Source: a virus. Taken from it: a DNA stretch of 64,000 nt. Positions 13,519 to 56,181 of this stretch are shown here, one piece after another (within the stretch, counting starts at the first letter, position 1; the number at the start of each line of letters is the position of its first letter). The position numbers and the translations under genes are program-made. The DNA lies in IMG/VR virus record IMGVR_UViG_3300027127_000005, positions 1 to 64,000 of that record; one strand, 5' to 3'. The notes beneath the pieces were generated by a model. The model made no database searches. It had not been told where the DNA came from and was given only the letters and a program-made list of their open reading frames with translations.

Positions 13519-13603
13519 AAGAGACCCTCTGGTTTGTGCATTGTTAAGAGGCATAGAGGGTGTGGGTCTTATTCAAAGTTTGGACCTTTGATGCCCGTAA
13601 GAA

Positions 13604-47454: not shown

Positions 47455-48006
47455 TCAGAGTGTCCTTACCCCCTTATGATTTTTATAAAATGGTGCCTTG
47501 AAGTAATGATTTGCCGAACTATGAAATAAAATTATTCCTTCAGGATTCATAAACCCTGGAGAGGCAACAGAACCATAATCCCAAAGTTTATCCATCGCAT
47601 CATCAAGTTCATTAGTGCTAAACTCTCCAGTATAAAGAGTAGGAACAACATAACAACACTCTGGTTTGTTTTCATAATTCCAGATACTCACATTAAACAA
47701 GGAGAACCTTTTCTCACCTTTGGGTAGATTATAACCTCGTTGAATACCACTACCCCACCATTCTCCGTGATGACGACCAGCACCAAGTTTCATCAGTTCA
47801 TCTTTATTTTCAGATGCCCAACGATGAAACCCAAAATTGTCAGACTCTGCACTCAACCAACGATTGCGACTTCCGATAAACATATCTCCATCGTCAGTGA
47901 TGTAGATAATACCATTAGTGCCGTCAATCTTTTCAGTGACAATACATTCCTTATGAAGACGGGGGATTTTAGCAAAAGGAACGAACTCGGGGTAGTTTTC
48001 GGTCAT
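47455..48006 (-). CDS. RNA ligase, nucleotidyltransferase family, 183 aa
   Basis: Covalent-nucleotidyltransferase motifs: KIDGTNG (motif I, K is the AMP acceptor) in TEKIDGTNGI, GEWWGSGIQRG (motif III-like), PEGIILFH (motif IV) and FKAPFYK (motif V). Short, without a C-terminal domain, as in small phage Rnl2-like ligases. It would seal nicked RNA, and T4-like phages use such enzymes to repair cleaved tRNA. The neighbouring tRNA cluster makes that role plausible. Confidence 0.8.
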   Translation of the reverse strand: MTENYPEFVPFAKIPRLHKECIVTEKIDGTNGIIYITDDGDMFIGSRNRWLSAESDNFGFHRWASENKDELMKLGAGRHHGEWWGSGIQRGYNLPKGEKRFSLFNVSIWNYENKPECCYVVPTLYTGEFSTNELDDAMDKLWDYGSVASPGFMNPEGIILFHSSANHYFKAPFYKNHKGVRTL

Positions 48007-48586: not shown

Positions 48587-48611
48587 AAATAGGAGGCATT
48601 ACACCTCCTTG
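48587..48611 (-). terminator. rho-independent terminator after tmRNA
   Basis: Minus strand: AGGAGG-TGTAATG-CCTCCT stem followed by ATTTTTA. Ends the tRNA/tmRNA transcript. Confidence 0.8.
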
Positions 48612-48828
48612 TAAGTTTTGGGTAAGAAGGAAACTTATAACCCCCTCACTCGTTTAGTTCAAACCAATGCGGTTTGACGAGAGAAAGCAACAATTTTGTT
48701 TGCGTTTGTTTTCTTGTCCCGTCAACAGATACAACATAAACCCCAGTCGATTCTAATTTACCCCCAAGAAGTGGAGATAATCGGTACTGCCCCGATGTCC
48801 TGGAATATAGAGGTCACATCCTCTTGAA
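48612..48828 (-). ncRNA. ssrA: two-piece (permuted) tmRNA
   Basis: Order on the minus strand is acceptor piece, a 6-nt spacer (CTTCTT), then coding piece, as in circularly permuted tmRNA of picocyanobacteria. Acceptor piece: T-arm ATCGG-GGCAGTA-CCGAT, then TATCTCC and discriminator A (48772). Coding piece starts at G 48765, GGGGGTA then ATCGACTGGGG. The acceptor stem GGGGGTA/TATCTCC pairs fully and has the G3-U70 wobble that AlaRS needs. CTGGGGT pairs with ATTCCAG to form P2. The tag reading frame gives ANKIVAFSRQTALV and TGA. A TTGACT / TATAAT promoter lies just upstream (48860-48832). Confidence 0.9.
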
Positions 48829-48906
48829 CTTATTATATAGTACCATAAAGAGTTTTATGAGTCAAGTTTCAATATAATGTTCTATGAAATGACAGTTAGC
48901 ACTAAG

Positions 48907-51040: not shown

Positions 51041-51116
51041 AGTCTAGGGTGGGATTCGAACCCACGGTGATAAGAGTTTTGCAGACTCTCGCATTCGACC
51101 ACTCTGCCACCTAGAC
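51041..51116 (-). tRNA. tRNA-Cys (GCA)
   Basis: Acceptor GTCTAGG/CCTAGAC, discriminator U, anticodon stem AGAGT/ACTCT with loop CTGCAAA. Confidence 0.9.
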
Positions 51117-51149
51117 ATTTGAACTATCTGGAATTTCCAGATAGTTGAG

Positions 51150-51370: not shown

Positions 51371-51458
51371 CAGAAAGGGAGGGATTCGAACCCTCGGAGG
51401 GATATTCTCCCTCGGAAGTTTAGCAAACTTCTACCTTAAGCCTCTCGGTCACCTTTCT
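51371..51458 (-). tRNA. tRNA-Ser (GCU)
   Basis: Acceptor AGAAAGG/CCTTTCT, long variable arm, discriminator G, anticodon loop TTGCTAA. Confidence 0.9.
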
Positions 51459-51509
51459 ATGTTGTCTTGAAGCAACCCATAAGGGTTTTATGTTGCCCGA
51501 AGGCAACAA
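51459..51509 (-). other. hairpin spacer between tRNAs
   Basis: Minus strand holds TTGTTGCC-TTCG-GGCAACA and further short stems. No gene. Probably a processing or stability element between tRNA-Ser and tRNA-Ile. Confidence 0.5.
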
Positions 51510-51581
51510 TTGGAATAGTGAGATTTGAACTCACGACTTCTGCGTTATCAGCACAGCACTCTACCACTGAGTTATATTCCA
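51510..51581 (-). tRNA. tRNA-Ile (GAU)
   Basis: Acceptor TGGAATA/TATTCCA, anticodon loop CTGATAA on CTGTG/CGCAG. Confidence 0.9.
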
Positions 51582-51586
51582 TTATG

Positions 51587-51741
51587 TGCCCTTGGTGGGG
51601 AATGATCCCACTCTCAATAGACTTGAGGTTTCGTACAAGAAGTACCCTTACGAGGGGAATCTTATCAGTGTGGGTTCAGCACACCTATCTAAAACTACTT
51701 TGTCAAGTTGAACCCTATTTCACCGTCCCAACGGCAAGGGC
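51587..51741 (-). ncRNA. unassigned 155-nt RNA with tRNA-like ends
   Basis: Begins GCCCTTG and ends CAAGGGC plus A, a perfect 7-bp acceptor-like stem, with spacers of only 3 and 5 bases to tRNA-Phe and tRNA-Ile. The 3' part has a T-arm-like GTGGG-ATCATTC-CCCAC and before it a variable-arm-like CTCAA-GTCTA-TTGAG. The 5' part has CCGT-TGGG-ACGG, then GGGTTCA pairing with TGAACCC about 30 bases later. No tag reading frame and no group I core. No convincing anticodon arm. Unknown function. Confidence 0.6.
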
Positions 51742-51744
51742 AAG

Positions 51745-51818
51745 CGGGAACAGTCGGATTTGAACCGACAACACCAAGATCTTCAATCCTGTGCTCTACC
51801 AATTGGAGCTATGTTCCC
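51745..51818 (-). tRNA. tRNA-Phe (GAA)
   Basis: Acceptor GGGAACA/TGTTCCC, anticodon loop TTGAAGA on stem CAGGA/TCTTG. Confidence 0.9.
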
Positions 51819-51922: not shown

Positions 51923-51987
51923 ACACAGAGTAATCTAAAAGATTGTTAGATTACCTGGAATATGAAGTATCCCTAAAGATACTTCAA
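51923..51987 (-). other. hairpin spacer between tRNAs
   Basis: Two perfect stems on the minus strand: GAAGTATC/GATACTTC and GTAATCTAA/TTAGATTAC. No gene. Confidence 0.5.
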
Positions 51988-55838: not shown

Positions 55839-56181
55839 TGCGAGTAGGGAGACTTGAACTCCCACGGGCAATGCCCAACAGATTTTCTTACCACTATAGT
55901 TTTCACTACCCTTTCGGTTTGTGGTCTGGACTATACCTTCACCATACCTTTCAGTTTAGGTGTTCCCCGTCTAGTCTCTACACGTTTTGCATTTTCTAGA
56001 TAATTCCAACCCTCTCTAGAAGCACATTGGGTAGCCGTTGTCTTTCCAACTGTCTTGCAACTTCGCTCGGTATTGCCATTTTACAGGTTTCACCGAATTT
56101 GAGGAATTACACTCATAAGGTTTCCCAAATGAGGCTCAATTTTCATAAGTCTGGTGTGTCTACCGATTCCACCATACTCGC
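55839..56181 (-). tRNA. tRNA-Leu (UAA) split by a group I intron
   Basis: 5' exon 56147-56181 ends ...GACTT (U34). 3' exon 55839-55886 starts AAAATCTG. Joined, the anticodon loop is CTTAAAA = UAA, acceptor GCGAGTA/TACTCGC, discriminator A, long variable arm GGGCA-TT-GCCC and T-arm GGGAG-TTCAAGT-CTCCC. The break is after U34, exactly where cyanobacterial and plastid tRNA-Leu(UAA) introns sit. Confidence 0.9.
55887..56146 (-). other. group I intron in tRNA-Leu(UAA), 260 nt
   Basis: Starts ATGAAAATTGAGCC and ends with G, as for the cyanobacterial intron. Core elements are visible in order: GGGAAACC, Q-like GGCAATACCGAGC, R-like GTAGAGACTAGACGGG, S-like AAGGTATAGTCC. No open reading frame inside. 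Probably self-splicing. Confidence 0.85.

Follow-up and report, generated by a model that had tools for sequence, protein, structure and literature searches.

A 155-nt segment of a viral tRNA operon is best read, with reasonable probability, as specifying a phage non-coding RNA on a tRNA scaffold that would be cut out of the operon and whose core would bind a target, the same kind of RNA as the species 1 RNA (rnaC) of phage T4. This reading of the RNA, which we refer to as class A, is based on its fixed place between tRNA-Phe and tRNA-Ile, covariation among its relatives, a closer likeness between loci than that of its flanking tRNAs, a conserved core and the rarity of a motif within that core. 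It is also based on the lack of a promoter- or terminator-like site, the frame of T4 rnaC and the RNA-ligase and tmRNA genes nearby.

The class A locus and its neighbors

The class A RNA lies in a 64,000-nt stretch of DNA (the window) that is part of a 71,415-base IMG/VR virus record. The source virus is uncultured and appears cyanophage-like, the tRNA array of the window being closest to the arrays of the cultured cyanophages S-PM2 and S-CREM1. The RNA is on the minus strand, as is the dense array of some 20 tRNA genes to which it belongs. The principal features of the locus and the window are:

51587–51741, minus strand: the 155-nt tRNA-scaffolded RNA (class A); 10 loci, all at a Phe/Ile junction
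51744–51818, minus strand: tRNA-Phe(GAA), upstream neighbor in transcription (ARAGORN/Rfam; Rfam ends 51745–51818)
51510–51581, minus strand: tRNA-Ile(GAU), downstream neighbor (ARAGORN/Rfam)
47455–48006, minus strand: short RNA-ligase protein of 183 aa near the tRNA array (Pfam RNA_ligase, 48.2 bits)
48593–48846, minus strand: phage-encoded tmRNA near the array (Rfam cyano_tmRNA, 84.9 bits; permuted tmRNA, 68.2 bits)
55905–56156, minus strand: group I intron match adjoining a tRNA-Met gene (58.8 bits)
13524–13560, minus strand: abiF RNA match adjoining tRNA-Arg(UCU) (48.8 bits)

At the class A locus itself neither ARAGORN nor Rfam, even at E ≤ 10, identified a tRNA or a member of any other family. 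No promoter-like site was found between tRNA-Phe and tRNA-Ile, nor a terminator-like site on the strand of the RNA. CCA is not encoded at its 3′ end, as is also the case for most tRNA genes of the array. The RNA-ligase protein possibly has a role in tRNA repair, and the tag of the phage tmRNA was read as ANKIVAFSRQTALV. The window also has several homing endonuclease genes, and the inter-tRNA spacers at 51458–51510, 51923–51987 and 51116–51149 are themselves simple hairpins (e.g., GUUGCCUUCGGGCAAC).

Relatives and distribution

To find relatives, we took five parts of the RNA and scanned sequence collections repeatedly with patterns, exact or degenerate, derived from them. Nine were found in viral contigs (L002, L003, L004, L005, L007, L012, L014, L023 and L025), all of them between tRNA-Phe and tRNA-Ile. 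A covariance model of the 88-nt core identified all ten loci at E ≤ 3e-29, once per record; in the 0.96 Mb searched it had no other match below E = 0.7, and the weak further matches were at chance level. Wider pattern scans of viral contigs returned the same nine loci and chance matches, mostly in coding DNA, and one further candidate (L029) was rejected as its 18-mer match was by chance. The class A patterns had no match in 84,980 species genomes, and a blastn search of the locus against cultured phages gave short tRNA-like fragments only.

Mean identity between the loci was 91% for the class A RNA and 98% for its core, compared with 83% for each of the neighboring tRNAs (Phe and Ile) and 69–76% for the other tRNAs of the arrays. 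These arrays recombine (between the window and L005, tRNA-Ser is 100% identical but tRNA-Phe 71%), so recent transfer may be part of the reason why the RNA as a whole is so similar between loci, and the comparison of the RNA with tRNAs is weaker than the comparison of parts within the RNA. Based on comparison of these sequences, the class A RNA was confirmed as a conserved and real feature. The relatives bear out the first-pass annotation of the locus, made from the letters of the window, in describing a discrete element that is not a tRNA, has ends like those of one and is structured in place of the anticodon region.

A tRNA-like frame around a closed insert

Alignment of the ten sequences shows a predicted architecture with a tRNA-like frame (acceptor, D-like arm, T-arm and discriminator), an insert closed by a stem that we term P2, and a near-invariant core. 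From 5′ to 3′ along the RNA, the elements of the frame and insert are:

51735–51741, minus strand: acceptor-like stem, 5′ strand GCCCUUG, pairing with 51588–51594
51723–51734, minus strand: D-like arm CCG-UUGGGA-CGG (UUGGUA in L012, L014 and L023)
51715–51719, minus strand: P2a stem, 5′ strand AAUAG, in the anticodon-stem place; outer pair A-U in six, C-G in three, mismatched in L007
51703–51708, minus strand: P2b stem, 5′ strand ACUUGA; 100% paired, three pairs varying through G-U
51691–51695, minus strand: P3 stem, 5′ strand GUUUU, with RAAAC at 51628–51632; 100% paired, one pair U-G in seven and U-A in three
51635–51665, minus strand: P5 stem AUAAGA/UCUUGU with a variable apical hairpin; P5 100% paired
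51616–51626, minus strand: 3′ strands of P2b and P2a, UCAAGU CUAUU; 98–100% paired as P2, at the site of a previously described variable-arm hairpin
51595–51611, minus strand: T-arm-like hairpin GUGGG-AUCAUUC-CCCAC; invariant in 10/10
51588–51594, minus strand: acceptor-like stem, 3′ strand CAAGGGC, with discriminator A at 51587

The ends of the RNA are as they had originally been described: GCCCTTG and CAAGGGC pair perfectly in the window as a 7-bp acceptor-like stem, the discriminator position is an A, GTGGG-ATCATTC-CCCAC forms a 5-bp stem with a 7-nt loop, and with the Rfam tRNA ends the spacers are 3 nt on the tRNA-Phe side and 5 nt on the tRNA-Ile side.

A model of nine helices was counted on the window and the nine relatives against 500 shuffles. 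Of its cells, 98.8% were paired compared with 97.1 ± 0.4% in the shuffles, and four pairs had changed on both sides compared with 1.2; on all measures none of the 500 shuffles equaled the real alignment, although related sequences can exceed such shuffles, so we placed weight on specific pair-change events. When the partners were slid, pairing fell to 37–45%. Compensatory changes, the proposed check on homologous loci, were found in the acceptor, the D-like arm and the P2 stem. The first acceptor pair is G-C in eight sequences, G-U in one (L023) and A-U in one (L007); substitutions in this stem leave most positions paired, one pair being broken in three of the ten. In L007 both partners differ in two pairs of the D-like arm, where an indel makes the alignment uncertain. 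The support for P2a is one clade-level double change, from A-U to C-G, and the stem is broken in L007. Read by eye in the alignment, the apical hairpin of P5 has the variants CCC/GGG, CUC/GAG and ACC/GGU. Folding energy by itself was only moderately better than that of shuffles (z −2.2). The T-arm and its loop were also found in tRNAs called in unrelated phage contigs (Thr in L008, Ile in L009, Phe in L011 and Met in L019).

Three bases separate the D-like arm from the start of P2, and four separate the end of P2 from the T-arm; as modeled, this placement corresponds to an anticodon stem with a short variable loop. The variable-arm hairpin of the first-pass annotation (CTCAA/TTGAG) is present in the window but broken in four relatives (78% of cells), whereas the long-range P2, which uses the same bases, is kept in 98–100%. 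The local hairpin is therefore probably wrong, and these bases probably form the P2 stem that closes the insert.

The conserved core and a predicted pseudoknot

The core and its two most conserved elements are:

51661–51718, minus strand: near-invariant 58-nt core, AUAGGGUUCAACUUGAYAAAGUAGUUUUAGAUAGGUGUGYUGAACCCACACUGAUAAG
51709–51714, minus strand: GGUUCA bulge inside P2, between P2a and P2b; invariant in 10/10
51668–51684, minus strand: hairpin GUGUG-CUGAACC-CACAC; invariant except for C/U at the first loop base

Only 3 of 58 columns vary in the core compared with 38 of 101 elsewhere in the RNA (Fisher p = 3e-6; p = 0.001 without L007). We propose that the GGUUCA bulge may pair with UGAACC of the hairpin loop (51673–51678) to form a pseudoknot. 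Since the bases of the bulge and hairpin never vary, the pseudoknot is a prediction from complementarity, without support from covariation. Among 20,000 dinucleotide shuffles, one contained the composite motif, in which P2 carries a six-base bulge that matches a 5-bp hairpin's loop at any position of the insert; this form of the test was picked after the motif had been seen. RNAalifold prefers a nested alternative, GGGUUCA/UGAACCC, for the same bases, and the P2 model without the pseudoknot is 3–11 kcal/mol less stable than the free minimum-energy fold; calculated energies do not discriminate between nested and pseudoknotted folding.

The CUGAACC loop contains a GAA and was considered as a Phe anticodon. 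This was rejected, as C37 and C38 would be atypical for a tRNA and the loop complements the P2 bulge. The ten sequences do not have a stop-terminated reading frame in common, which bears out the earlier statement that there is no tag frame and indicates that the RNA encodes neither a tag nor a peptide.

Comparison with T4 species 1 RNA

The T4 species 1 RNA has been known for fifty years. It is a late RNA confirmed by Northern blot and has no assigned function (PMC9697503; PMC3014915). In the record that we used, rnaC is a 139-nt RNA of the T4 tRNA operon (L030:1409–1547), and we aligned it with five homologues (L102–L106; RB69, two Enterobacter phages, an Aeromonas phage and Yersinia phage TG1). 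Across these six T4-like phages the acceptor, variable hairpin and T-arm were 91.7% paired compared with 81.5% in shuffles, with seven pairs of the frame changed on both sides (0 of 500 shuffles). Two U-U mismatches interrupt the acceptor in most of the phages; in Yersinia phage TG1 all 7 bp are paired. The covarying acceptor, variable hairpin and T-arm indicate that T4 rnaC, too, consists of a long insert within a tRNA frame.

Class A RNA and T4 rnaC are both non-tRNA RNAs inside a phage tRNA operon, on the same strand as the tRNAs and separated from them by spacers of a few nucleotides, and both have a T-arm and stem-forming ends. In class A the acceptor and D-like arm covary and the T-arm is invariant. 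In T4 rnaC a structured insert of about 85–90 nt replaces the D and anticodon arms; unlike class A, rnaC has no D-like arm adjoining the acceptor, and it has a canonical UUCGAAU T-loop and a 10-bp variable hairpin. There is no sequence homology between the two, and the class A core model found no match in the whole T4 record. Such homology is needed for descent from rnaC, not for belonging to the same kind. Based on the covariation of the frame in the rnaC homologues, the "new class" of RNA proposed in the first-pass annotation was too strong a term.

Other RNAs in related tRNA arrays

Using the tRNA-Phe end as the query, we collected 62 viral loci and surveyed their Phe/Ile junction. Class A RNA was present in 6, a second RNA in 15, a third in 10 and other RNAs in 6; the junction had only a few bases in 23, and 2 loci were not such arrays. 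The second RNA is structured, about 119 nt long (UUGACCUUUAUGGUCACGGAG...) and had chance-level Rfam matches only (E 6–7; L038, L039, L042, L043, L044, L046, L051, L056, L062, L063, L068, L072, L075, L077 and L081). The third is 135–163 nt, is closed by a 9–10-bp stem (GGGUUGCUG/CAGCAACCC), has an internal hairpin of variable size and had no Rfam match at E ≤ 10 (L059, L061, L069, L070, L071, L080, L082, L085, L089 and L091).

Recurrent inter-tRNA segments were also observed at other junctions. An RNA at the Gly/Asp junction (L012:877–1009, L041 and L048; Gly/Asn in L099) has AAAGUAGUUUAAAU(A/U)GGUG, a T-arm-like hairpin with the loop UUCGAUU and a closed acceptor-like hairpin. We considered it as a class A homologue through a common AAAGUAGUUU-(N)-RAUAGGUG, L041 and L048 being close relatives; this was suggestive by eye and was not upheld by the core model. 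An unannotated tRNA-like RNA of about 90 nt (L028:5477–5571, which is S-CREM1; L067, L092 and L003) has two T-arm-like hairpins (GACGGUUCGAUUCCGUC, GGUGGUUCGAAUCCACC) and a D-like arm that adjoins the acceptor, and ARAGORN makes no call on it. Overall, the arrays in these phages resemble islands of RNAs that have yet to be described.

Alternative identities

The class A RNA could be a tag-less derivative of tmRNA, with a tRNA-like domain, P2 for the anticodon stem and a pseudoknot, that acts with SmpB or EF-Tu or competes with tmRNA. Its elements follow the tmRNA order (acceptor, D-like arm, P2, pseudoknot, T-arm), and a tmRNA about 100 nt longer is encoded by the phage itself. However, the RNA had no match at E ≤ 10 to the standard, cyanobacterial or permuted Rfam tmRNA models, the ten sequences lack a conserved tag reading frame, and the third acceptor pair is C-G (U-G in one sequence) rather than the G-U (G3-U70) that marks alanine. 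In addition, the core model did not confirm an apparent likeness to a second, tmRNA-resembling RNA of the arrays (E = 0.7, in another register). We consider such a derivative unlikely. A link to permuted tmRNA through a similar 3′ hairpin had been seen by eye only and was set aside.

It is likewise improbable that the segment is a cis-acting structured spacer for processing or insulation between tRNA-Phe and tRNA-Ile, with no role of its own as an RNA. Unrelated structured RNAs do occupy the same junction in related arrays, as this would have it, but in 23 of the 62 sampled arrays tRNA-Ile directly follows tRNA-Phe, so no spacer is needed, and the class A core is conserved in sequence, not in pairing alone.

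A tRNA gene with an insertion or intron, decaying or spliced, would account for the tRNA-like ends, and the group I intron and homing endonuclease genes show that such elements occur elsewhere in the window. Yet no intron family matched the class A locus at E ≤ 10, including group I (RF00028), while the intron of the window itself was found. Furthermore, the 5′ strand of the acceptor runs directly into the D-like arm with no 8–9 linker, P2 pairing takes the place of the anticodon stem, conservation is highest in the insert and none of the relatives has an insert-free tRNA. The interrupted tRNA suggested in the first-pass annotation is therefore not supported, and we regard it as very unlikely. 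An intact tRNA (RF00005) was rejected on the negative ARAGORN and Rfam results and the presence of P2 in place of the anticodon stem.

Least credible is a bacterial Y RNA of the YrlA type, whose tRNA-like end would be presented to a nuclease complex with the Ro60/Rsr protein, as no Rfam Y-RNA family matched at E ≤ 10 and the tRNA-like part of class A is formed by its two ends, the reverse of the YrlA layout. YrlA is a non-coding RNA that does have a tRNA-like domain, and it was proposed to be a competitive inhibitor of an anticodon nuclease (PMC7790460).

GOLLD and ROOL, which phages and prophages carry, often close to tRNA islands, are structured RNAs without assigned function (PMC12286853). 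Both are much larger than class A, many GOLLD members exceeding 800 nt, and their Rfam models did not match the class A RNA. We know of no tRNA-like ends in either.

Proposed processing and role

In view of its tRNA-like ends, its place in the array and the short spacers (3 and 5 nt), we would expect the tRNA-scaffolded non-coding RNA that we favor to be transcribed together with the array tRNAs, with RNase P producing the 5′ end, RNase Z or exonucleases generating the 3′ end and CCA possibly being added. The core would fold as a pseudoknot, GGUUCA of the bulge with UGAACC of the loop, and bind one specific partner. Our leading guess for its role is that of a decoy for a tRNA-directed host factor, a decoy being among the possibilities raised in the first-pass annotation.

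A broader speculation, which we put forward as possible but rather doubtful, is that the tRNA body is the natural scaffold with which phages express and stabilize unrelated cargo RNAs. The class A RNA would then be a decoy cargo tying up a tRNA-directed host defense and the T4 species 1 RNA another cargo, and tRNA arrays would be islands of exchangeable counter-defense RNAs.

The occurrence of a second, independent RNA with the frame of T4 rnaC but a different core suggests that a tRNA body with a structured insert is a recurring phage design and not an oddity of T4. The invariant core offers a concrete bait for pull-down experiments, and the junction, at which RNAs replace one another, is a place to seek more of them. 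If the core binds a tRNA-directed host factor, the class A RNA would represent counter-defense by RNA; in any case, RNAs of this kind now lend themselves to functional tests.
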